Positions 3,227-54,844 of a stretch of 64,000 nucleotides of DNA are shown one piece after another. The stretch lies in the NCBI GenBank assembly GCA_032622095.1, contig CP136066.1, forward strand, positions 67,154,278-67,218,277, in the 5' to 3' direction. The DNA comes from Siphonodentalium dalli (taxonomy: Eukaryota > Mollusca > Scaphopoda > Gadilida > Siphonodentaliidae). The stretch's first letter is position 1. The number at the start of each line of letters is the position of its first letter. The notes beneath the pieces were generated by a model. It saw only the letters and a program-made list of their open reading frames with translations, searched no databases and was not told the DNA's origin. A program made the translations under genes and the position numbers.

Positions 3227-3802
3227 AATAACTAGACAACAGTGTCGTTTACATTATTAATAACTAGACAACAGAGTCGTTTACATTATTAATAACTAGA
3301 CAACAGTGTCGTTTACATTATTAATAACTAGACAACAGTGTCGTTTACATTATTAATAACTAGACAACAGTGTCGTTTACATTATTAATAACTATACAAC
3401 AGTGTCGTTTACATTATTAATAACTAGACAACAGTGTCGTTTACATTATTAATAACTAGACAACAGTGTCGTTTACATTATTAATAACTAGACAACAGTG
3501 TCGTTTACATTATTAATAACTAGACAACAGTGTCGTTTACATTATTAATAACTAGATAACAGTGTCGTTTACATTATTAATAACTAGATAACAGTGTCGT
3601 TTACATTATTAATAACTAGACAACAGTGTCGTTTACATTATTAATAACTAGACAACAGTGTCGTTTACATTATTAATAACTAGACAACAGTGTCGTTTAC
3701 ATTATTAATAACTAGATAACAGTGTCGTTTACATTATTAATAACTAGATAACAGTGTCGTTTACATTATTAATAACTAGACAACAGTGTCGTTTACATTA
3801 TT
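3227..3802. repeat. 32-bp minisatellite, 18 copies
   Basis: The unit AATAACTAGACAACAGTGTC plus GTTTACATTATT repeats exactly 18 times (576 bp). The only changes are scattered single-base variants such as GATAAC for GACAAC. It lies in the intron between the exons ending at 2428 and starting at 4508. Confidence 0.97.
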
Positions 3803-7415: not shown

Positions 7416-7905
7416 TTATCTATGTATCCATGGTATTATTAGTGGTTATCTTATCTATGTATCCATGGTATTATTAGTGGTTATCTTATCTATGTATCCA
7501 TGGTATTATTAGTGGTTATCTTATCTATGTATCCATGGTATTATTAGTGGTTATCTTATCTATGTATCCATGGTATTATTAGTGGTTATCTTATCTATGT
7601 ATCCATGGTATTATTAGTGGTTATCTTATCTATGTATCCATGGTATTATTAGTGGTTATCTTATCTATGTATCCATGGTATTATTAGTGGTTATCTTATC
7701 TATGTATCCATGGTATTATTAGTGGTTATCTTATCTATGTATCCATGGTATTATTAGTGGTTATCTTATCTATGTATCCATGGTATTATTAGTGGTTATC
7801 TTATCTATGTATCCATGGTATTATTAGTGGTTATCTTATCTATGTATCCATGGTATTATTAGTGGTTATCTTATCTATGTATCCATGGTATTATTAGTGG
7901 TTATC
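7416..7905. repeat. 35-bp minisatellite, 14 identical copies
   Basis: The unit TTATCTATGTATCCATGGTA plus TTATTAGTGGTTATC repeats 14 times over 490 bp, with no variation that I can see. Such homogeneity means recent expansion, or assembly collapse or expansion. It is intronic. Confidence 0.97.
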
Positions 7906-8432
7906 TTTTTACTGACTTTTTACCCAGAGCGAATGCACTGAATCCCTTTAACAATTTTATACCTGAATGGATCCCCCCATTCAGTTACAAATATATACAA
8001 ATAAATAGTATATTATTCCTTTGTAGTTTTTTATGTTGGTAATTTGGTAATACATAATTATGCAAGTGCATGGCATCGGTTTCCTATTAAGGCATAGGAG
8101 GGAATGTATTATTTGAAAGCGCTAATATCTCACATCTAAAACATGGACTTTTTACTGACAACTGACTAAAACCGGGATTGACTATTTGTGGTAACAGGAA
8201 CGGAACCAGGAACAGGAACAACTTCCGAGTACGCTTAGTTCTCAAAAGTAGTTTTAATTGTTGCAATAGTCACGTAGGGGAGATGCTATGCTTTCGACCG
8301 ATGTATAATAGACATTGTTTCATTGCGTAAGACGCGAAAACATTTACCTTACATATCTGTCCCTCATACCTGTTACTCGGAAAAAAATACGTTTTGCTAA
8401 TTTCCGATTATACGCATTCTCAAAAGTAGTGT

Positions 8433-17085: not shown

Positions 17086-17148
17086 CGACGACGATGATGA
17101 TGATGATGATGATGATGATGACGGTGATGATGATGATGATGATGACGG

Positions 17149-17197
<49 letters not shown>

Positions 17198-17239
17198 GAT
17201 GAGATGATGATGATGATGATGATGACGGTGATGGTGATG
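17086..17239. repeat. (TGA)n trinucleotide microsatellite
   Basis: About 150 bp of GAT/TGA repeats interrupted by GACGG. Open frames of poly-Met, poly-Asp or poly-Ile here are artefacts of the repeat. Confidence 0.95.
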
Positions 17240-23607: not shown

Positions 23608-24034
23608 AGCCAATACTTGCCAGTAGCATTCCGTAACGGGAATATTCGACTGTGTGTGGTGTTTTTTTGCTTTTGTAGTGAACTGTTTCTGTGCATATTT
23701 TTGTTGGTTATATCTTTTTACACCGACTGTGCTACATTTCTTTCTAAATGCATTGTTATTTTGATTTGTTCTGTTAAAATCCAGCATGACCAAACAGATG
23801 GCGCGGCGGAACAAATTGGCCACAGTGTGTACATTGTATGTGTAGACAAATAGCAGCCAGATGCTTTCGTCATTTTTGGATCGAATAAATAAACTGGAAG
23901 CTATGTCTATACGAACATTACATTAAATAAAAAAAACTTTTCGGTGCCGATCACATGGTAACCTCGTGCAGCCCCACGTGCTACCGGTATCTGCCCACTA
24001 GACTGGGTTATGATGATACATGTTCTCATTTTAG

Positions 24035-24210
24035 TGGCAGCAGTCATTTCACAGCATACTACAGAGGGTACCCCATCGCTTCTCACGGCCTGACCATATG
24101 GATGGACGAGGTTAATTGTACCGGCACGGAGCAGTCGCTTGCGGATTGTGATAGTTTCGGATGGGGGCGCCATGACTGTTCCCATTGGGAAGACGCAGCC
24201 GTCCAGTGCG
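24035..24210 (+). CDS. SRCR6 second-half exon
   Basis: Acceptor CATTTTAG, donor GTGGGT; 176 nt, phase 2 to 1. It encodes [20 protein letters not shown], then [23 protein letters not shown] and EDAAVQC. Four cysteines give the full group A set with exon 21876-22026. Confidence 0.95.
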
Positions 24211-24458
24211 GTGGGTGAACGAGTCTAAATATTTGCGATCAATATCAGATGACGCGTCCAAGGAAATCATCTTGTGAACTAAATAACCCCAGTCAATTAA
24301 GCATATGAACTTAAACATTCTGCAGTTCGTTCCCATAACTCTTCTTATACATTAATGAATGCAAATTATATTGAGTATGTGATAACCGTCAACATAAGTG
24401 TCTGCAACTAGACACTGCTTTTTTCATTTGCGTTGTCATGGAAACACTGCACCCTAGT

Positions 24459-35564: not shown

Positions 35565-36642
35565 GACTGTTTCTTGGTATATAATTATATGTGCACACAG
35601 GTTTATATACTTTTCTTCCACGTACATGTACCGTGTGTGGCGCGGAATCGATGTCATTGCGACGAGGAGATGACCACACGGGTGCATACGTACCCGTCAT
35701 GGCGTCCAGTAACTATCGGATGTACACACCACCGTGCTACAATCCAAGGGCAACCACATACATAAAGAAATGACACTCTTTAGATTAACGATTATGATTT
35801 ACGCTTTTGAACATAGACAACGAACCGAATATTTATTTATGAAATGCACGTACGAGTGCCGATGATTTACAATGTAGTCCAAATTAATAATATATCACTT
35901 AATTGAAATGTCGATACTGCGGACTAAACGGACTCTATCACAACATATCCTCGCACAAATAGGTTCATATTCGGCCTATAATACTCGTATAGGTTCATAT
36001 AGGATTACTTTATTCTGAAATAAGCACATAGTGGACTTATATCCGTAATACCGTTTTATGGCGCGGGCCACAATAAAAACACAAAGGGTGTACATCTGGT
36101 TGTGAGTTGGTTTATTCGTGTTATTGTCCACCCTCAATTAACCTATAAGTTATTATGAGTCGATAATGCATGCCACTAAAATACTCTCATTTTCAGTTCG
36201 TTATGGACTCAAAATGAGGCAATTCTACGCCGATTATGAACCTAAAACAGATCATATTATAAGTCGACAACGTGCTGATTTTCGTGAGAACAGACTGACT
36301 ATCAAGTCGATTCGATGTCAAGATCTGAACAACGACTCGGTGTTCCTGAAAGCCCATGGCGGTTTGAAACATGAAATTGTGTTAACTTTTTTTTGACATG
36401 CCGGTGACGGGGATCAAAATAGTTTGCAAGATACGTCAACTACTCATATACGAACTGTATGCCTGGATATAACGTGAACAATTCAAAAGCGAACAATATT
36501 ATTCGTATTTTGGAGCACAAACCGCCATGTGGCTTCAAGATGAATACCATGAAAACAATTCCAGTGTAAACATTAACAATTTAATAAAGAACAGGTACAT
36601 TCAGTAATCTAATCTCAAATATTGTGTATATTACTTCCACAG
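35565..36642. other. Intron with fragments of families E and B
   Basis: Family E lies at 35955-36090 and a reversed family B end at 36478-36537 (CACAAACCGCCATGTGGCTT). An open frame at 36166-36396 follows an AG but is out of phase with the flanking ZP exons and is not ZP-like. Confidence 0.55.
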
Positions 36643-37034
36643 GTGACAAACGATACGATGGTGTTCAGAAATTTCGTTAGTTATCATGAGGGGTCACGTG
36701 ACGATGAAGTTTTGGCTGGCGATCGCTGGAGAATCCACTTTGAGTGTCAGGTTTCAACCACAGGCACAGGTTCGGCCGTCGTTAAACCTGGCGAGGTGGT
36801 CGAACACACCATAGTAAACCAAGGCCACCACTTCGGACCTTTCATCGGGTTTTATGAAGATCCCGATTACACTAATATTATATCAGGGAACCCGCTGAAA
36901 ATAATAACTGGAGAACAGGTATACACAAGGCTATATATATCCAACGACACTGATGTAAAGATGGTGGTACATCGATGCTATGCTGTCCCAGACTTCGTCC
37001 ACAACGCAACACAGTACAACCTCATTATGAACGG
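36643..37034 (+). CDS. ZP domain, second exon (ZP-N end to ZP-C start)
   Basis: Acceptor CTTCCACAG, donor GTGAGT; 392 nt, phase 0 to 2. It encodes VTNDTMVFRNFVSY, WRIHFECQVST (fourth ZP-N cysteine), a long linker and VHRCYAVPDFVHNATQYNLI with MNG. The last matches the CYATP...Y.LI.NGC signature that opens ZP-C. NAT is a potential N-glycosylation site. Confidence 0.95.
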
Positions 37035-39231
37035 GTGAGTTTGATACTATGATATTGAGAGCAACTAAATATATTCTAAACAGAGAATTATACCACAACT
37101 GATGGGGCAGGTTTTTTTTATTACGAAACATACATACGGCGTAATCGATCCGAGGTTTCGTTGTTTAGCACGGAGGATTCGATGGGATGCCAACGAGGGT
37201 TCGAGCATTTTTGGTGCATTTTTTGTGTGTTATTAAAATGTGGTAATTCATGAAATGAGGTTCACTGCTGGATACTAAACATGTAAATGCTAACATTTGG
37301 TAGTTTGTCGAGTGGGGAAACCCTTATTACACATGTATATGCCGTCGACTGGGTGTAGATGGTGCCGGGTATGAAAATATCTTGTTCACTAGTCAGGTAT
37401 ACTGTCAACGGGAATAAAATCAGTGCACATAATAAAACCCTCGGTAGTTCTAACTCAATGTTCACAGTTTTGCATTGCCTAAGATATGCGACGATATCTT
37501 GTCAACTCGCACTGTGATTTTCAGCTCACAACACGTTGGAATATCCGATATAATTAAGAAGTGAGGCGGGGTATAAACAAAAATGTCAACGTGATTGTCA
37601 ACGAGGGTTCGCTATGCAGACATTACAATAAATATACCAGGGATGACCGACACTGTGGCCTGTTGGCGTCTCATGAAGGTCACTGGAGCTTTTAGCCATT
37701 GGCCATGGCTCATTGTGTGTGGAAAACAAAACACCACCGATGAATATATTTGTATTTAGTATACACAAACTGACTAACCTGGTTTTAAATAACGAGAATG
37801 ATTATATACATTGCGTTTCCAGAAGTCAATGTATATACTGACATATTATCCTTTGATTGGATGAAGAACCATCACATGTCATCACCTATCAAAGTATCGC
37901 CTGGCTAGTCTTTAAACTATTATGTTTTGTACATGTATTACCTTCCTTTGAATTAGGAGAACCCCATCATAAACGGGTCGATAAAAAATAATTATTGCGA
38001 TATGTGCTTAAAATACTTGTTAAAATATATAGGAGCATAAACACGAGGACTTGTTAGCTTCGTGAGTTAAAGGTCAGGGTTTTTGTTTTTGTTTTGTTTT
38101 GTTATTTATTTATTATTTATTTATTTACATGACCGGTTATTGGTCTTGGAGGGCCGTACAACTCTTATACATTGCTTACGTGTATGTTAGCTATGAGTTC
38201 AGCTGTTGTTTCAGGGTGTAAGTGCGTCGTGCGTGAACGGAATATAAGTTGTCACGCGCATACATTTCAATTCGTTTATTGATGCTGATATCAAGTGGTT
38301 TAATGATTTAAAGTTTGGTACAGTGTGTCGCTATTTGTGTCAAGAGTTCATGGTTATTGTTCAGTGTTGTTTTGTCCAGGATATCAGGATATTCATATTT
38401 TATTGATGAATCCACATCTGTGTTTGGCGAATGGCTCACATATTCATATAAAGTAAATAGGTCTTTGTTGCCTGTATTGCTTATTTGACATACTGCGTTT
38501 GTCGCTGTATATAAAACTGTCTTCATTCTATCCTTCTTTTGTACATACTGTATTTTCTCAATTTCCTGAGAATATAGCATATATATAAATCAAATTTGAT
38601 CTGAATAGTTTTCTATTCGTGTGTAGCAAGAATATGTTTGTCATGATCAATACCTTGATTATAGCCTTTTTGCAGGCGGCGGACGAGTTTTTAGTTGTGG
38701 CCCAAACGATATGAGGTATATTTCCAGTCATTTTGCAGTTTCATATTTAATTAACTTTTGTTGTTAAATAATCATGCCATTCATCGGAAAGCTCTCAATG
38801 AGAGCTTTCCGATGAATGGCAACAAGCCTTATTTCCGACTAAATCCTGAACATTTACCCATAATTCTCCTGTTGTTAAGGAGTCAATTATGTAGGGCATT
38901 ACTGTAGTCTAATGTACCCTAAATATAGTTAGTGTTTCTATATTCCGCTTCGCGCTTAAGTCTGTAAGATGTATTTGGTGTTATTAATATCGTGTAAACA
39001 TTCTTGCTTGATTGCACCATAATGCATAACACACCTTTACGTTGGGGAAAATAGTCAGTCAAGACTTGAATTAATGTTATTTATTGGAATACTTGAGGGA
39101 CATTTAAAATGACAGAAAACATTTGTTTGATAATTTTATGACCTGTAAAAATGTGTTGACTCTGATTCTAGTGAAAATGTTCAGCGACACAAATCTACTG
39201 GCCTTGTCAGAAATAGACATTATAAATGATA
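37035..39231. other. Intron, no exon seen
   Basis: AT-rich, with a poly-T/TTTATT run at about 38080-38130 and a perfect short palindrome at 38776-38820. Confidence 0.5.
38776..38820. repeat. Perfect 45-bp palindrome
   Basis: GCCATTCATCGGAAAGCTCT-CA and its exact complement are separated by one base. The flanks show no further symmetry, so it is not obviously part of a larger element. Confidence 0.9.
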
Positions 39232-43977: not shown

Positions 43978-44255
43978 AGATATTAACTGCGCTTAAGTGC
44001 AATAAGGATGTCATTGCACTTTAGCGTAAGAAGGAATGTCTCATTGCGCTTAAATGCAATAAGAATATGCCTTATTGCACAGGAATATCTTATTGTATTT
44101 AAGCGCAATAAGTTATCTCTAATTGCGAATAAGCACAATAACTTAAGGAATATTCTTATTGCGCTTAAACGCAATGAGAAATATTTTTATTTCGCTTAAG
44201 AAGTTAAGTTAAGCGCAATTAGAGATTTCTTAAGTTATTGTACTTAAGCGAAATT
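43978..44255. repeat. Cluster of TTATTGCGCTTAA motifs in both orientations
   Basis: TTGCGCTTAA, GCAATAAG, ATTGCACTTTAG and their complements recur about every 25-40 bp. Adjacent motifs face each other and could pair into many small hairpins. Confidence 0.75.
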
Positions 44256-44299
44256 GTCCATTTAATGTCAATTTGGCTTACCATAGAGATCATCAACAA

Positions 44300-45200
44300 T
44301 GTCTATGCGCAACGCCAATCTTCTCTTTTTGGATTCCAACTGTTGGCTTATTATGAACTTCTATAGTGGTACAATGCAAATTAGAATCAAATGATAAAAA
44401 ATATGTATGTATTGTAACACAACTATACCGATGAAAAGAAAAATAATAATTTGGGCCGGGATTAGATGTTGGGTTGGTTATATGGAGAAAAAGTGGGTTC
44501 ATATCGATGAACTGACAAAAATTAGTAGAGCGTTAGCGACCAATGTTGCCATGTAATGATGTAATGCATCGCGACTGTACTGTAGCCGCAATGATATAAA
44601 ATGGGGGGGGGGGGGGGTCAGAAATTTTCTGTATTTCTATAAATGGCACCAGAATTATATAGAAAGGAATAGCAATCGATATACGTATACGGTATAGTAA
44701 TAGCATAGATATACATGTAAGTATCAAATGATTAAATATGTACGTAACGCGACTATACCGATGAAAAAAAAAAATTGGGCTGGGATTAGAGGTTGGGTGG
44801 ATTATATATGTGGATATGGGGTTCATACCGATGAACCGATATAAATTAGTAGAGCAATAAAGACCAATGTTGACACAAAATTCAAAGCGACTATACTGTC
44901 GCGATAAAACTATAAAATGGGGGGGGGGGGTGTCTGAAACTATCTCCATTTCTATAGATGGTGCCATAATTTTATAGTAAGGAATAGCAAATGATGTAAG
45001 TATATAGTGATATACCATAGAAATTAGTATCACATGATAACATATACACATAATGGCTAATGCGACTACACTGATGAAAAATTAATTGGGGGGGGGGGGT
45101 CTGACAGGTTATATGGAGGAAATATGGGTTGGTACCGATAGACTAAAATAAATTTGTCGAGTGATAATGACCAATGTTGACGTATAAAGTAACGCGACTA
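44300..45200. repeat. About 320-bp tandem repeat with poly-G tracts, three diverged copies
   Basis: The landmarks GCGACTATAC, GATGAAC/GATGAAAA, AATTAGTAGAGC and a run of 10-14 G recur at spacings of about 310-325 bp. G runs are at about 44605, 44921 and 45088. Confidence 0.75.
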
Positions 45201-45483
45201 TACTGTCGCACAATTTGCCAAAACGGCGAAAGATTAATGAATATTACGAGACATGCATGTCATGTGTCAAAAGTTACTCAAAACTGTACTATATCACGAT
45301 TATACATGTTGTGTTAGGCTGTGGGTCAAAAGTGAGTAGGTGACCAACTAGAAGTCCCAAAAGCAAAAGATATCAGGTAGAACTGGACAGCTGGTAAAGT
45401 ATGGACCCTGGTGCCCAATATGGAGAAGCGCAGAAAACACTCGCAGAGCCCTAAAATTGATTAACAACAATGTCAACATACAT

Positions 45484-45965
45484 GTACATGTAGGATTTCC
45501 CATTAAAATCGATTTATGTCGATAAAACTCTTATTTTTCAAAATTTTAAGCTGAGACTTCGTATGCATATCTAGAATACTTACATAATCTTAATTTAACT
45601 AATTTTAACAAGTGATAGTCTTTTAGACTTGAGAAATAATTTTTTATTAAACATCGATTTAAAAAAAAAGTTAGGTATAATTAAACAATTGTTAATAAAA
45701 CGACTAATATCCAATTTATGAAGTTCGGACTTTGAATGCATGTGTAATATACTTATCCTATCTTAAAATAACTGGATTGTGTAAGAAATAAGCTTTCAGA
45801 CTCGAGAAATTGATTTTTTTTAAACATGAAAAAAAAACCGTAAAAAGAGACATGAAATTTAACATAGGATTTCCCCATTCAAATTGATTTATGTCGATAA
45901 AACTCTTATTTTTCAAAATTTTAAGAGGAGACTTCGTGTGTCCGCGTGTAATACTTATATTTTCT
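45484..45965. repeat. Direct repeat pair of about 105 bp
   Basis: ATAAAACTCTTATTTTTCAA with GACTTCGT context occurs at 45484-45590 and 45858-45965. A weaker related piece lies between them. No gene. Confidence 0.7.
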
Positions 45966-47670
45966 TAAAATGATAAAGCCCAACACGTAATTATGATTTA
46001 GATGGAAGAAATTGAATTTTTTCGACGAGTCGAGAATTCGGAGAATAGCTGTCCTCGCTTGAAGTTGAACTCCGCGTCGGCGGGAATCGAGGATCTAAAT
46101 TTCACTCCACTTCAACATCCGAGAATTCCTGCAAGTCGTCATAGAAGCTCGCATGTAAACACATCAATATATGCATACATACAACTAAGAATATTGAAAT
46201 TTAAATCCCAGCACAAAGTAAAACTCTTCCGAGCCGAATTCACTGATCTTCAAGCGAGCCTGAGTCGTGAACGATTTAGATTTTAGGCACCTTGTTTACG
46301 ATGACGTCACGGTCATTTCGCGGTCAATCTAGTTACCCAATTGGCAGAAATATTTAGCCGTACCTCTTAGTTTTATCAGTTAGAACTCTAATTTTATTGG
46401 CGATTTGAGATCAACATCATGGTATGAAACTGTTTATGGCGGTGTTATCCAAGTGTGTGCTTTGATAATGATTAAAATTTTATTTTGCGATCAAACGTCA
46501 GTGCAGCTCAGCAGAAATGCATGGGCACTAGTTCAGTTCAGCAGAAATGCATGAGTCCTACGATTATAGTACATCCACTGGACGCGGCTTCGCCGCGTCG
46601 ACCAGTGGGTGAAAAAAGAATACTTTGTCACTAGAATTTGTGTTCTTTTCATCATGTGTCATTTTGCCATACCAGTAGTTACTATTACGGGTTCGTGAAA
46701 CCAGTCACGGGTACCCGAGCTTTGCGTGCGATCACAGAGTCTACCACTGACTATGAACTGACAACAAACTAATTAAATACAAAATAATCACCGAAAACAA
46801 AACTATATCACTTTACTGTGAGAGGCAACAAGTTTGAACGGCACTATTTTCTCACAAACGGAGCCGAATAAATGTCAATTCTGCGAATGCTTTTGGGACT
46901 TTCCGAAACATTTGCGACTACTCCCTATCCCTGACTCAAATCCAAGATGGCCACTGGCACCCATGTTTTAAACAAAATTTGGAAACATTTGATGATTCCC
47001 ATTTAGTAGTCACCCCACAGATCCATATGAAGTTTGGTGATCGGATGAGGAATGTGGTTTGTTGGGTGTACCGAAGGATTTAGTCACCAAAGAGTAAGAA
47101 ACAAGATGGCTGCCAGCGGCTATGTTTTTCATTGAAAATTGTTAAACTTTGATAGCTCTCATCTAGAGGTGATCCTAAAAATGCCTGTAATTTTTTAAAG
47201 CAGTTCTCCAATAATTGTGGGCTATATTGATATAAAATATAAATATTAAACCTAATAGATATTCACCATACTATCATGCTAGGGGGAGAGGATTCACAAC
47301 TCTGAAAAAAAATTACTCGATGAAAATTAGTAATACTACATTTTTTCCCAATAACTCCGAATAACTTTGATGTCACTTATCAGCTCAAATCGCAATTCTT
47401 ATCAGCGCTAGTTAATTATGCGAAATTTGTCACATGTCTCTATTACCTGTTCCACGGTGGGGAATACCGAGTTGATGAGTATCACGCATTCAAAATGGCC
47501 GAGGCGATCGAAAACGCCACCAGAAGCGAGGAAAATGTAATAAACTAAGATATGACATATTTTAAAGTTATTATACAATGTTGTGTACAGCACTGACATA
47601 GCTTTATTGAATCGAAGGTCAAAATGGTGAGAGTTTACCTGTATTAAAAAAAAAAAACAATAAGCATTCT
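45966..47670. other. Intergenic, no gene recognised
   Basis: A 94-codon frame at 46002-46286 has no domain and contains inverted pieces (CTCGCTTGAAG and its relatives). A small hairpin, CCACTGGACGCGGC to GACCAGTGG, is at about 46575-46608. The remainder looks like decayed dispersed repeat. Confidence 0.45.
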
Positions 47671-50531
47671 ACTTCTGAGGAAAGTTTCAGTGTTTCACCA
47701 AAGAAACAAAGTCGCGAAGAGAAGCAATCTCGTGATAGTGGGTCGTCTGAGAGAAGGTTACTGTCAGATGAAAGTGCATTATCAAAGAAACTTTATTGTG
47801 GAGATAAACTATCTGATGATATCGGGTCGTCTGAGAGAAGGTTGCTGTCAGGAAAGTGCATTATCAAAGAAACTATGTTGTGGAGATAAACTATCTGATG
47901 ATATCGGATCGTCTGAGAGAAGGTTACTGTCAGGAAAGTACATTATCAAAGAAACTTTGTTGTGGAGATAAACTATCTGATGATATCGGATCGTCTGAGA
48001 GAAGGTTACTGTCAGGAAAGTGCATTATCAAAGAAATTATGTTGTGGAGAAAAGCTATCTGATGATATCGGGTCGTCTGAGAGAAGGTTACTGTCAGCAG
48101 AGTGCATTATCAAAGACACTTTGTTGTGGAGATAAACTATCTGATGATATCGGGTCGTCTGAGAGAAGGTTACTGTCAGGAAAGTGCATTATCACAGAAA
48201 CTTTGTTGTGGAGATAAACTATCTGATGATATCAGATCGTCTGAGAGAAGGTTACTGTCAGGAAAGTGCATTATCAAAGACACTTTGTTGTGGAGATAAA
48301 CTATCTGATATCGGATCGTCTGAGAGAATGTTACTGTCAGGAATGTACATTATCAAAGAAACTTTGTTGTGGAGATAAACTATCTGATTATATCGGATCG
48401 TCTGAGAGAAGGTTACTGTCAGGAAAGTGCATTATCAAAGACTCTTTGTTGTGGAGATAAACTATCGGATGATATCGGGTCGTCTGAGAGAAGGTTACTG
48501 TCAGGAAAGTACATTATCAAAGACTCTTTGTTGTGGAGATAAACTATCGGATGATATCGGGTCGTCTGAGAGAAGGTTACTGTCAGGAAAGTGCATTATC
48601 ACAGAAACTTTGTTGTGGAGATAAACTATCTGATGATATCGGATCGTCTGAGAGAAGGTTACTGTCAGGAAAGTACATTATCAAAGACTCTTTGTTGTGG
48701 AGATAAACTATCGGATGATATCGGGTCGTCTGAGAGAAGGTTACTGTCAGGAAAGTGCATTATCACAGAAACTTTGTTGTGGAGATAAACTATCTGATGA
48801 TATCGGATCGTCTGAGAGAAGGTTACTGTCAGGAAAGTGCATTATCAAAGACACTTTGTTGTGGAGATAAACTATCTGATGATATCGGATCGTCTGAGAG
48901 AAGGTTACTGTCAGGAAAGTACATTATCAAAGAAACTCTGTTGTGGAGATAAACTATCTGATGATATCGGATCGTCTGAGAGAAGGTTACTGTCAGGAAA
49001 GTGCATTATCAAAGACACTTTGTTGTGGAGATAAACTATCTGATGATATCGGGTCGTCTGAGAGAAGGTTACTGTCAGGAAAGTGCATTATCAAAGACAC
49101 TTTGTTGTGGAGATAAACTATCTGGTGATATCGGGTCGTCTGAGGGAAGGTTACTGTCAGGAAAGTGCATTATCAAAGAAAATTTGTTGTGGAGATAAAC
49201 TATCTGATGATATCGGGTCGTCTGAGAGAAGGTTACTGTCAGGAAAGTGCATTATCAAATAAACGTTGTTGTGGAGATAAACTATCTGGTGATATCGGGT
49301 CGTCTGAGAGAAGGTTACTGTCAGGAAAGTGCATTATCAAATAAACGTTGTTGTGGAGATAAACTATCTGGTGATATCGGGTCGTCTGAGAGAAGGTTAC
49401 TGTCAGGAAAGTGCATTGTCAAAGAAACTTTGTTGTGGAGATAAACTATCTGATGATATCGGATCTTCTAAGAGAAATGTTCATTCAAATGAACAGTCAT
49501 CACCCAAGACAAACTTTAATTCTTCTGCTGATCCCATATCTGGTGTACGTGGTGACTATCTTCCCGACCTCGATTCACTCAGACTCAGCGACTCAAATGA
49601 TTTTGAAGATCTTTTGCAGTTTTCGATCAGGGAATCATCGCTTCCTCTAAACAGCACAGTTGAATTTGGCAGAAGAGAGGGTAACGGTGACTTAGCTGAG
49701 CTTGAGGAAACTCTACCAGTGTTGCATTTCCATAGACTTCCTCCACTTAAAAACAAATTTCCAACAGAAATATGATTGCACAGCTCACGTGTTCAACGAG
49801 ACTTAATAATGCTAAGAAAATGAGATTATAAATACAAGTACAAATGATATGTCTGTAACAATGGTTCTGCCAAATGGAACTGAGGAGACAGGCCAGGATA
49901 CTGGATGTGTTCTAAAGGATGCTCTGACAGTACTGGAACACTTTTTACAGCAAAGGGACAAGTGGAAGATTGTCAAAGGTACCATTCATAAGACATGATA
50001 CGAGACAAGAGTGGCTGTGCTCATGGTAGTTGGCTTCAATGTCGTTAAGTAATTACCCGTGAGAATTGCGCCAGTATTTCTCCAACATGTTTTGGGAAAT
50101 TCAATAAGTGCCGAGTGCATCATCTAATGCTACAAAGACTTTATTCCTGAACAAGAAAAAGAATTAATAATGAACCCAATTGAAGATTTCAACGATGAAG
50201 ACTATTGGGGCTTCCTGAGCAACCATGATGTGAAATCATTAGTTAATTCTTCCAACTGGTCGAAAATTGTAATTGAAATTGCACATAAAGAACTCAGGAA
50301 CCGGTATACTTGGGAGATTGTTGGTCTGTTGTATTACAAAATTTGCCCAACAATTACCAAATGAAATTGATGATCTGAGAACAGGATTGACTCCAAGGCC
50401 GAAGCACGTACTGGCAATGTTGGTATTTGACGGTATGAATGATGATGACCGCAAAGTGGCTGATTATCTGAACAAAATTGTCAAAAAGAGTGATGTTGAG
50501 AGATTGAGAAAGTTCTTGAGGTTTTGTACAG
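47671..50531 (+). pseudogene. HECT-like (G2E3-type) gene, broken
   Basis: It begins with a Ser/acid-rich segment (TSEESFSVSPKKQSREEKQS) and continues through the 21-unit repeat into another Ser/acidic stretch (49470-49775). It then resumes at 49861 with MVLPNGTEETGQDTGCVLKD. This matches the region before the HECT-like fold in a multicopy animal family (DG.EE.G.D.GGV.RD). Later parts match too: LIMNPIEDF, IVIEIAHKEL, LTPRPKHVLAML and LRKFLRFCTG. In-frame stops lie at 49996, 50050 and 50125. A frameshift lies between about 50300 and 50345. A GTATGT donor follows base 50531, so it is not a processed copy. No catalytic Cys region is visible. Family assignment is from memory. Confidence 0.7.
47740..49460 (+). 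repeat. 21-unit coding-derived tandem repeat, 82 bp (first unit 84 bp)
   Basis: Units start at 47740, 47824, 47906 and then every 82 bp (one of 79 bp from 48234) until 49379; a degenerate unit starts at 49461. Unit 1 is 84 bp and reads in frame as a 28-residue block (GSSERRLLSDESALSKKLYC...DDI). All later units lack AT in TCAGATGAAAG (TCAGGAAAG), which shifts the frame in every copy. Each frame meets the TGGAGATAA stop once per three units, producing many nested 65-codon frames that are not genes. Confidence 0.93.
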
Positions 50532-52283
50532 GTATGTTAAAGACATATTGTGTGCTCATTAATATGTTTCAAACTGATAACTGAATATTCATGTAGTATT
50601 ATGGTTCCTAGAAGATTTAAATTAACAATATTCATTCAGAAAAATTTAGTCACATCAGATTCAGTTGTATCGTTTCAGAAAATGCAAGTTATCACTTTTC
50701 TGTCAATCCAATGCAACTAAAATATATGTGTATTCAAAACATATAGTTCAAGTTGGAGTCAAAGTTTTATGATTTATTATTATCCACCCCTTTACTAACA
50801 CTATTTCTGATTGGGCAAAAGCCGTTACATGATAATTCGGGAAAAAGTCACATTGGACTCCCGTAAGTTTGTGACGTCATGGAGTTCCGATAAAAAAGTC
50901 ATATTGGACTCGATTGTGTCCAATATGACTTTTTTTATCGGGACTCCGTGACGTCACGAATTTGACACACACTCACCAAAAGTATGCAAAAGTCGGACCT
51001 CTTCGCCGTGTAACATAGTCAGATGCATGGTGACGTATCTGGATATAACCAATTTAAAGACCACCTTTGAGAAATCGATTATAGGGAACAATTTCCGATA
51101 GGTTGCCAAAGGGCACACTTTATTTGGCTTCTCCTGAGAGCGATTCGTATTTGATGTAGGCATTACTCCCAAGTGCATCCATAATAAAATATTCCATCTC
51201 ATTTCTAAATGAATACATGGACGTACATTAAATATTTACACTTCCTATTTGGCTTATCAATTTGACAATCGTGAGATACATGGTCCTGTCTTCATTTTTA
51301 AATTTCATAGGCGCCAAACAAGCCATACATAATGCTGTGTGTATTATATTGAAGAGTGAAAAACTGAATTTGTTCTTGATTTCCATGCATCACCGTGTGA
51401 TGTTTCCATGTGTTTTTGTCCGACTGACAAATTGGTAAAGGTAATTCGATAAGTTATATTGTTCAAGTATTTGCATTATGTTACAATCATAGTTTTTGGA
51501 ACAAGGTGAACTAGTGCGTGTATTCATACATTCCGTTAAGGAAAACTTGCGTAATAGTGTTGTTGTTACATTCGACATTGCACAAGGCTGGTGATAGTGA
51601 CATTTTATTTTTATTTATGTAGAATTCTATTGAATGAATTCTAGGTAAGCCAAGAGCGATATCGGTCCGGGTCCTGAATTCGAATGCCTGTATCGCTTTT
51701 AGACAAAATGTATGAGGACTCTCTAATTTAAGAATTTTATTTTGGGTTAAATTCCATAATAGCTCCGTGCCGAACACTGCTTTGTCAAAACGACTGACGT
51801 ATATATGAATGAGGAACTCAGAGGAGTTAGACCTTCAGCATATAAGCCAGAATTTGACAGCATAAGAAAATTGCTTCTCAGTTTGTCACATACATGTGCG
51901 ATAAAATGGTTTATTTTTTTATACTTAGCAATTGATATTCCCAGACGAACTCTACTGTCCACTTCTTAAAGGTGTTCAGACCCCTTGATCCATTCGCGTT
52001 TACACTTATTAGCTTGTCTCTTTGTCTCACTATTGTTATCAGTTCGTATGAATTCGATCGCGAAGTTAAATCTTTGTTCACTTCGAAGACTTGTTACTAT
52101 AATTCAGGTTTGTCGTGGGCAGATTGTGTTTAATTTAATCGAAGCTTTGCATCTTTAGAGCATTTAAGAAAAGATCGACAAGTTTCAATCGATGCCGGGG
52201 GCACGGGAACACAACAAATAAACTCACCATTTGCGTAGTCATTTAAGTCAATAGTAATACTACTTGCTGAGACGCGACAGAAC
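50532..52283. other. Intergenic with one strong palindrome
   Basis: A fold-back palindrome at 50871-50957 has arms GTGACGTCATGGAGTTCCG... with AAAGTCATATTGGAC. A decayed outer copy of the same strings (GTCACATTGGACTC) is at about 50848. No exon seen; bases near 52200-52283 precede the PAN gene start and should hold its promoter, but no clear TATA box stands out. Confidence 0.5.
50871..50957. repeat. Fold-back palindrome GTGACGTCAT...GTGACGTCAC
   Basis: The stems GATAAAAAAGTCATATTGGAC and GTCCAATATGACTTTTTTTATC surround a short loop. The outer stem is GTGACGTCA.GGAGT.CC. Confidence 0.88.
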
Positions 52284-52610
52284 ATGGCTGCATTATGTGG
52301 GTTTCTAGCTCTGGTTCTCCTTGCTGCTTACCAGAACGTTCAAGTTAGTTCGAGTCACCTCGGTTCTTGTACGGGTAGAGGAAAATCTTTTAATCGTTGT
52401 ACGAACTGTGATGAAATTCGGAGGGTGTGGGCCCGTTCGAAGATTGAATGCGCTTCGAAATGCCTGCGGGACGAGGATTGCAGATCGGTGAATTTTGACA
52501 AAAGCAGCGGCGTGCAGCTTCCATGCGCACTGCTCGCATGCAGTGTGGCTAATTTAGACGGCAATGCCTTGCAGGATGACAGCAACTTCTTATTCATTGA
52601 CATGATACAG
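52284..52610 (+). CDS. First exon of a secreted PAN/apple-domain protein
   Basis: ATG in a good context (GAACATGG), 109 codons, then a GTGAGG donor in phase 0. Residues 1-24 are a signal peptide (ALCGFLALVLLAA core). The rest is a PAN/apple-like module: GSCTGRGKSFNRCTNC, then RSKIECASKCLRDEDCRSVN, FDKSSG, LPCALLAC and FLFIDMIQ. PAN modules mediate protein or carbohydrate binding in secreted invertebrate proteins. The frame stays open 21 codons past the donor, so a short intron-reading form is possible. Downstream exons were not identified; they may lie beyond the window. Confidence 0.82.
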
Positions 52611-52662
52611 GTGAGGATTGATACGCAACTAATGCGCGCACGATCAGATAGCGCAAAAATAC

Positions 52663-53022
52663 TTAAAGTGATGTGAAACACTCCGGCAGAGTGATAAAAT
52701 AGAAATGGAGAATAATTTAGCTCAAAGTAGTTATATTTACAAATATTATATCCAAATTGACAACACACGACGTCATTCTTACCTATTAATTAAATGCAGT
52801 GACTCTCGATGGCCAAATAGTTTTCGTTAGTTTATCTCCGATAGTTTTGTCCCGAATCGAGAAGTAAATATTTACACTAGTTCGGACGATGTTTTCTATG
52901 ACGTGGTACGATTGATTTGCTTGAGATTTTCGGCGCTGTTAGTAGAATCCTGAATTGGCATAGCGCCTGACAACTAACTTATCAGTTTCACGCACCCGAA
53001 CAAGTCCATAATATGTCTTTAA
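52663..53022 (+). mobile_element. TTAA-flanked MITE family A, copy 3
   Basis: Intact borders, TTAAAGTGATGTGAAACACT and ATAATATGTCTTTAA, 360 bp. It lies 52 bp inside the first intron of the PAN gene. Confidence 0.88.
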
Positions 53023-53469
53023 TCTGGGTTCACGGTTAAATAGGGATTGATTTTCAAACGCCGAAACAGTTGCCGAGGTTAGGATTACATTTCGAAACAA
53101 GTATCCTGAATTAATTGGAAGGGTGATAACTCTAAATAGAACGTACTTTGACGAAGTAACTGAAATTTATATGCAAGAATTTACAACACCACAATTGATC
53201 AACTTTGGTAAAATATAAGTCAAATTCTCCTATTTGGTTTTGAGCCTGTTTTATATTACGAGAACTTTCTTGAAAGGGACTTTTTAAAATGGCTCCGTAA
53301 TTTCGTCAATAATCTCAGTCTCAATCCTAACCTCGCGTGCCACGTGTTATTGCGATTTAATACCAATCCCTATCTAATCATGAAACCAGATTAATATTTC
53401 TCTCTATCCAATCGTGTGCGTATTGGCTGGTTCGCTCGTATGTTTGGTGTGCAGTCAAGTCTGGACATA

Positions 53470-53932
53470 GTGTGTCTGACATATGGGGATGATTTTAGGG
53501 ACGCTATTCCACATGGCGGGCTGGAATAACAAAATTCACCCTATCAGGGACCTCATTTTGCTTATGCCTCATCTTCTGGGAACTTTTTATATATAGGTCG
53601 ATAAATAAACGAAATATTGATATACCGGCTGCATAAGTTCTGAAAAACACTTTCCAAGGTCACAGCCATTTCCATTTATCGCCAGAAGTCACACAAACGC
53701 TCTTTATTTCTACCATATCAGGAATAAACTAACACGGAACGCTCTTTTCTGCTCCATGTCGTGCAAATGGCTGTTCTTTTGAATTGCGACACATAGTTGA
53801 ATGCGTCTCGTCGGGTTGTAGAATGCTCGTGGAATGGTAGTTGAGATAGACATCGACCTATATCGATACCGGGAAACATTCAAAAGTTAATAATATGTGT
53901 AATTTGGAACGCAAACAGCCATGTGGTTTTAA
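53470..53932. mobile_element. Family D fold-back repeat and reversed MITE family B
   Basis: Family D occupies 53470-53573 (TTCACCCTATCAGGGACCTC). A reversed family B copy occupies 53595-53932 and ends at CCATGTGGTTTTAA. Both are intronic to the PAN gene if that gene continues downstream. Confidence 0.75.
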
Positions 53933-54844
53933 ATTGTCATTTTTGATTTGAGATTGCATAATTTATCGGACTCGTTTTCCATTGCTCGCGACTGTCGCTC
54001 TTTAATTTCGGTAAATTACTCCAAAGCGGATATAATCCGAGTTATTCGTAAAATAATGAGATCACACTTTCAAGATTCAAGCTCTCACGGGATATTGACC
54101 ATTTTTATTCTAATGGAATCTCCAATTAAATTATAAAAATATATAATCGCCTGCCAATGAACATCAGGCGCTGTCACTCTGTAGAAAGTTTTTAAAAGTT
54201 GCTGAAAACATATCTGATTCGTCAATGTTTTCAGTTGCTCAATTGACATTATTCGCACTTATTTTGGATTCACTGATATTTCATATATTCTCGATTCGTG
54301 ATTTGTTACTTTTTAGCTGTGTACGTAGCTGTTTTTAGGTAGTATTTTAATGCTCCCAGGCCTCTTTTAAACTCACATATCTTTTAGTATCCATATTGTG
54401 TTATCTCTTTGTTTTAAACTGTATTTCTATTGTGAAGCGCATTGAAACTAATTTACTGTCTAATGCGTTTTTAAATGTAAATATAATATGTTCAGGCAGG
54501 ACGTGGTGACTGTGTTGTCTAACCCCACACAGTTTGGTAAACAGTTGGAATTGTTCTCATTGTTTGATTTTCCAACTCATGACCTTTGATGATTTTAGAC
54601 AAACAGTAGCATATTTTTCTACTTTGGGTCAATTTGCAGTTGGTGAGGAATTTGTTGCTTTTAGACCAACAGTATAGAACTGTTTACATCAACGCTAAAA
54701 TGTATAGTAATACAATACCGTTGTACATATTAGTGTTCAATCCAAACAGTTTGAGTGCACATGTTCCGGGCATATAATCGATCATAACACGAAAGTACCC
54801 AATATACAGTACAAGGCCCGTGGTTTTTTACATGTCCACGGAAG
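53933..54844. other. AT-rich, nothing recognised
   Basis: No exon with SRCR, PAN, CUB or lectin-like signature was found here on either strand. Confidence 0.5.

Follow-up and report, generated by a model that had tools for sequence, protein, structure and literature searches.

The tandem array and the probable coding relic downstream

The window is the whole 64,000-nt stretch of Siphonodentalium dalli DNA analysed here. Tandem Repeats Finder (TRF) detects an array at positions 47733-49476 of the window, with a period of 82, 21.3 copies and 94% matches. When phased by the codon-aligned start TCGTCTGAG, i.e., the TCG codon in the frame of unit 1, the array consists of 21 units at 47743-49463. 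A previous reading, made from the letters without database searches (the sequence-only reading), had placed the array at 47740..49460; the array itself was correctly recognized, but its end coordinate leaves out the final 3 bases of u21. The array is real and neatly ordered, and in kind it is an ordinary minisatellite, i.e., a head-to-tail array of units of ~10-100 bp with high identity.

The first unit (u01, 47743..47826, + strand) has 84 bp, or 28 codons, and the translated peptide SSERRLLSDESALSKKLYCGDKLSDDIG. Alignment and translation bear out the proposal of the sequence-only reading that this 84-bp unit is in frame with the upstream sequence. The unit is the only near-consensus one that has the two bases AT, at 47768-47769; in the alignment of the units, the corresponding columns 26-27 are filled in 1/21 units (u01) and empty in 20/20 others. 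The string TGTCAGATGAAAG, with one mismatch allowed, has one occurrence in the window vs 0.17 expected by chance. All other units had been described as lacking the same AT and as 82 bp long. The first part stands, as none of units 2-21 (47827..49463, + strand) has the AT, but the length holds for only 19/20 of these (u02-u06 and u08-u21), with u07 having 79 bp after an additional 3-bp loss.

A unit of 82 bp represents 27 codons plus one base, and the reading frame therefore moves at each unit. The frame shift by each copy, previously pointed out, is apparent from the translations, in which every frame across the array carries stops (26, 25 and 27 in the three frames). The longest open run within the array is 75 aa, and a 107-aa open run (47648-47968) enters the array from the left flank. 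Of the ORFs of at least 150 aa, four are found in the whole window and none at the array locus. A living coding repeat has a unit that is a multiple of three and is open throughout; here stops are found in all frames and only u01 has 84 bp. When the ancestral half-frames are taken apart, there are no stops in any of the 21 units, and no further frame-changing indels were seen in the 20 AT-less units. Repeated translational frame-shifting, whereby a +1 shift per unit restores the frame, was dismissed, since 20 consecutive shifts would be needed. Folding of u06, one of the 21 units, gave an unremarkable z of -1.05.

Downstream of the array, a probable coding relic is found at 49849..50361 (+ strand). 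Its translated aa sequence is in one frame with three stops (MSVTMVLPNG... to ...YYKICPTITK), and it displays no Pfam or NCBIfam family; a PDB search with the piece at 50128-50361 gave no chain with an E of 1 or lower. In another frame, at 50423..50536 (+ strand), there is a weak match to the HECT domain (PF00632), which covers profile positions 204-241 of 306. The match has an E of 0.0034 and 17.5 bits vs a Pfam cut-off of 23.9, with an E of 0.008 in the longer reading. It is one fragment only and does not reach the curated Pfam score for a HECT domain. The frame that carries it ends at 50581, and the match itself does not extend beyond position 241 of the 306 in the profile, with no second stretch appearing in the longer reading. 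The only PDB match of the HECT-like piece was to MK0293, an uncharacterized protein, at E 1.3, and no HECT ligase was returned. Thus the description of the locus as a HECT-like gene has one PF00632 match in its favor, but this match lies below the Pfam cut-off and the PDB search gives no HECT ligase. The pieces at 49849-50581 may resemble a family of HECT genes that is present in many copies in aquatic animals. We infer that the array, the relic at 49849..50361 and the HECT-like stretch are parts of a single gene. The stops in the relic and the change of frame would fit a dead gene copy.

Two stretches that may fold back were noted in the vicinity. Just past the relic, at 50865-50963, there is an inverted repeat of ~99 bp that is like a small foldback element, with 33-nt arms that are 88% complementary and an inner perfect pair of 18 nt. 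At 46575-46608, upstream of the array, a hairpin-like stretch ccactgg...cgcggcttcgccgcg...ccagtgg was found by eye. An element with terminal inverted repeats around the gene was searched for at 44000-54500; the 25 pairs listed, of 33 in total, include no convincing candidate.

Worn units at the array edges and divergence among units

Both edges of the array are bordered by degenerate sequences that align with u01. On the upstream side, the degenerate unit u00 (47672..47742, + strand) has no stop in the frame of u01, and its translated peptide ends in ...SEESFSVSPKKQSREEKQSRDSG. The gapped score of 47655-47742 with u01 is 17.0, which was reached by 0/2000 shuffles and by 0/3072 control stretches of the window. 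In the ungapped comparison, the last 39 bases of u00 match u01 at 25, and 0/123,424 controls are as good; five lengths were tried, each with 0 or 1 control as good. The state of u00 at the two-base site is ambiguous, since the aligner opens a gap there. By eye it had first been counted as further evidence for the two bases, and it was dropped as such because of this gap.

On the downstream side, the degenerate unit u22 (49464..49547, + strand) is in register with the array and lies in the ancestral frame. It retains the two bases (TCAAATGAA), and its translated peptide is SSKRNVHSNEQSSPKTNFNSSADPISGV. In the ungapped comparison with u01, 31/48 of its first 48 bases are identical, and 0/123,406 control positions on both strands of the window are as good. 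Five lengths were compared, and at 36, 39, 45 and 48 bases no control did as well; at the full 84 bases there are 38 identities, a value reached by 22/123,334 controls. The gapped score of 49464-49559 is 19.0, which none of the 2000 shuffles or 3072 control stretches attains. Following u22, the same frame remains open at 49548..49772 (+ strand), with a Ser/acid-rich translation; it should be noted that the window has 28 open runs of at least 103 aa over the six frames, so that the length of this run is not rare.

With a unit length of 84 bp, a single frame is shared by the left flank, u01, the rear of the last unit and the right flank. This agreement in frame between u01 and both flanks, together with the two bases retained in u22, leads us to take 84 bp as the ancestral unit length and loss of the AT as the derived state. 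An ancestral unit of 82 bp with a later two-base gain in u01 was ruled out by the bases in u22 and by the flank frames, which fit 84. The differences between u01 and u22, as read by eye, are mostly replacements. Thus the older repeat is likewise without clear signs of purifying selection.

The units of the array themselves are closely similar. With column 84 ignored, and with one mismatch in u07 that stems from gap placement counted, u01 and u21 each differ from the consensus at one site, vs a mean of 2.3 for u02-u21. Pairwise differences average 3.8 between u01 and the other units, and 4.5 among the others. Since u01 is no more diverged than the other units, little time seems to have separated the founding duplication (u01 vs the founder), the deletion and the expansion. 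Three pairs of near neighbors are identical (u10=u12, u11=u13 and u19=u20, at a lag of 1-2), and three such pairs were obtained in 149/20,000 permutations. The mean distance between neighbors is not unusually low, as 4472/20,000 permutations are as low. The identical pairs represent local duplication turnover of the type found within minisatellites, and the array appears to have kept changing through block duplication.

Units u02-u21 display 24 distinct substitution events, a count that omits one artefact of the u07 gap. In the ancestral frame, 8 of these are silent, 16 are replacements and none produces a stop; by codon positions 1, 2 and 3 they number 9, 4 and 11. Simulated neutral means are 6.1 silent, 16.4 replacement and 1.5 stop events, with P(>=8 silent) of 0.26 and P(no stop) of 0.21. 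With a neutral expectation of only 1.5 stops, the absence of stops carries small power. Purifying selection on the units, which the sequence-only reading had proposed as a check, is not apparent in the silent fraction (8/24), and the pattern looks consistent with neutrality and loss of coding, at low power. The events are unevenly spread. Unit columns 43-51 hold 9/24 events within 9 bases (422/20,000 random placements are as clustered), and the first 25 bases hold 3/24 (738/20,000 random placements have as few). This uneven spread could stem from mutation bias or from constraint.

Proposed order of events at the locus

The locus is likely to represent a neutral minisatellite that has grown inside a repeat coding for Ser/acid-rich sequence, in an animal gene that is decaying and probably HECT-like. 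This reading builds on the common deletion, the ancestral length of 84 bp, the stops in all frames, substitutions that do not depart from neutral and the local duplications. The putative series of events starts with an old in-frame repeat of 28 codons, the worn copies of which would now flank the array. A fresh duplication of one 84-bp unit would then have produced u01 and a sister unit, and the AT would have been lost from the sister. Multiplication of the 82-bp unit to ~20 copies may have followed by slippage or unequal exchange, the copying mechanism that we infer, with local block duplications arising later. The gene would presumably have been dead already, and its HECT identity is likewise presumptive.

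The alignment supports the descent of all 20 present AT-less units from one mutant unit. Twenty independent deletions at one site were rejected, there being only one other indel among the 20 units. For the present copies, it is also well supported that growth came after the loss of frame. The proposal that the mutation came first and that the array then grew from the mutant unit thus holds in part: the present copies stem from one deleted unit (20/20), but the array need not have been small before the deletion, as an older array of 84-bp units, once homogenized, would look nearly alike.

That the loss of frame was itself the cause of the growth, and not only its forerunner, is a reading that we consider unlikely. 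If it were true, coding selection on protein length or sequence would previously have held the copy number to one or a few, the two-base loss would have removed this brake and about twenty copies would have been produced fast, and the locus would be a natural experiment on coding constraint vs minisatellites. The event order is readable here from a single sequence by means of three features: the frame-breaking indel common to the units, the intact unit at the edge and the worn outer unit that gives polarity. If relatives confirm this order, the locus would illustrate, on a small scale and cleanly, how a repeat expanded only after coding had ended; taken alone, it is more of a curiosity than a surprise.

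Among the alternatives, the one that survives best, although rather unlikely, is that of an older, long coding array of 84-bp units, through which the deletion was swept by unequal exchange or gene conversion that spared u01 at the edge. Frame loss would then have come after the main expansion. Such a process would leave a single intact edge unit as the expected remnant, and the block duplications show that turnover continued; in addition, a fixed deletion implies descent from one mutant anyway, and the present copies are silent on any earlier copy number. However the edges of the array are not worn, with u01 and u21 both closer to the consensus than the mean unit, and just one near-identical 84-bp unit is left, the next units outward being strongly diverged.

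The missing AT may also be viewed as the junction of the founding duplication, whereby a segment of 82 bp, from column 28 to column 25 of the next unit, was duplicated without a separate deletion. The junction of a tandem array can lie at any phase, and the apparent simultaneity of deletion and growth would be explained. This reading predicts the presence of AT in the last near-consensus unit, but u21 is without it, and u22 is diverged from near its start; we regard it as very unlikely.

A gene that still works, with the array spliced out as an intron or with the frame shifts tolerated, and with non-coding 82-bp units, is highly improbable given the three in-frame stops of the probable relic downstream, the HECT-like stretch in another frame and substitutions that do not depart from neutral. 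The ancestral half-frames, which are free of stops in each of the 21 units, would agree with such a gene, as would an ATG in a seemingly good context at 47495 with possible splice sites nearby, which were noted by eye. An assembly or base-calling artefact is the least probable reading, close to negligible: arrays are hard to assemble and the copy number may be wrong, but the deletion lies outside a homopolymer, many units have private differences, and an exon with an SRCR domain elsewhere in the window reads cleanly (see below).

The favored minisatellite reading can be compared with known systems. In MUC1, a small indel in one repeat unit breaks the frame; the gene is a living one, in which the shifted unit occurs as a rare disease variant. 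The repeat concerned is a coding VNTR with a 60-bp unit, described for ADTKD-MUC1 (PMC5843638). The array described here is similar in being a coding tandem repeat with its frame broken by a small unit indel, but here the shifted unit became the entire array, and the gene around it is probably a relic.

Ordinary neutral minisatellites and satellite arrays evolve by unequal exchange. The present array is like neutral minisatellites in its near-identical units, local block duplications and a pattern of silent and replacement changes that does not depart from neutral; it is unlike them in that a former coding unit can be recognized as its founder and that the deletion gives an order of events. 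Tandem repeats are also found within protein-coding regions (PMC1273636). The 28-codon unit and the low-complexity Ser/acid-rich region are shared with these, whereas the units here are no longer a multiple of three. Among the literature matches listed, neither the titles nor the openings of the abstracts point to this locus or to the amplification of a frame-broken unit.

Other features of the window and searches for relatives

Prokaryote, plasmid and viral collections yielded no relatives, an outcome to be expected of animal DNA and hence of little weight. The first 412 array bases (47743-48154) gave no plasmid match, and an exact 21-base unit string gave none in viral contigs. Patterns from the protein pieces gave 4 and 11 matches in viral contigs and 528 in genome contigs, none of which was confirmed by tblastn. 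Within the window, a blastn search with 46500-47742 and 49464-51500 (E 0.01) returned only these sequences themselves and one self-inverted stretch, and a tblastn search with three protein pieces returned only the pieces themselves and one chance row (E 0.46). No Rfam matches were found in the window, and ARAGORN, with the bacterial code, gave no predictions there.

The Pfam scan took in 9 of the 123 stop-to-stop pieces and one piece of 61 aa. An SRCR domain is found at 23931-24215 (Pfam E 2.2e-12) and a piece of a ZP domain at 36613-37035 (Pfam E 1.5e-6); PAN and CUB are each represented by one weak match below the cut-off. These domains are the ground on which the window was taken for animal DNA. 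Two matches were set aside as chance, one of the PAN piece with a viral family (E 0.14, below the cut-off) and one with purH (10.7 bits vs 528). SRCR-like exons are repeated on the + strand at several places in 2254-24215, one confirmed by Pfam and the others seen by eye.

Tandem arrays are also present elsewhere in the window, for which TRF gives 33 rows in total, some of them overlapping. Two of these arrays are 3227-3802, with 18 copies of 32 bp (98%), and 7416-7907, with 14 copies of 35 bp (100%). Thus long arrays of this type are common here. In addition, a run of GAT triplets is found at 17093-17239, with ~49 copies and 87% matches.
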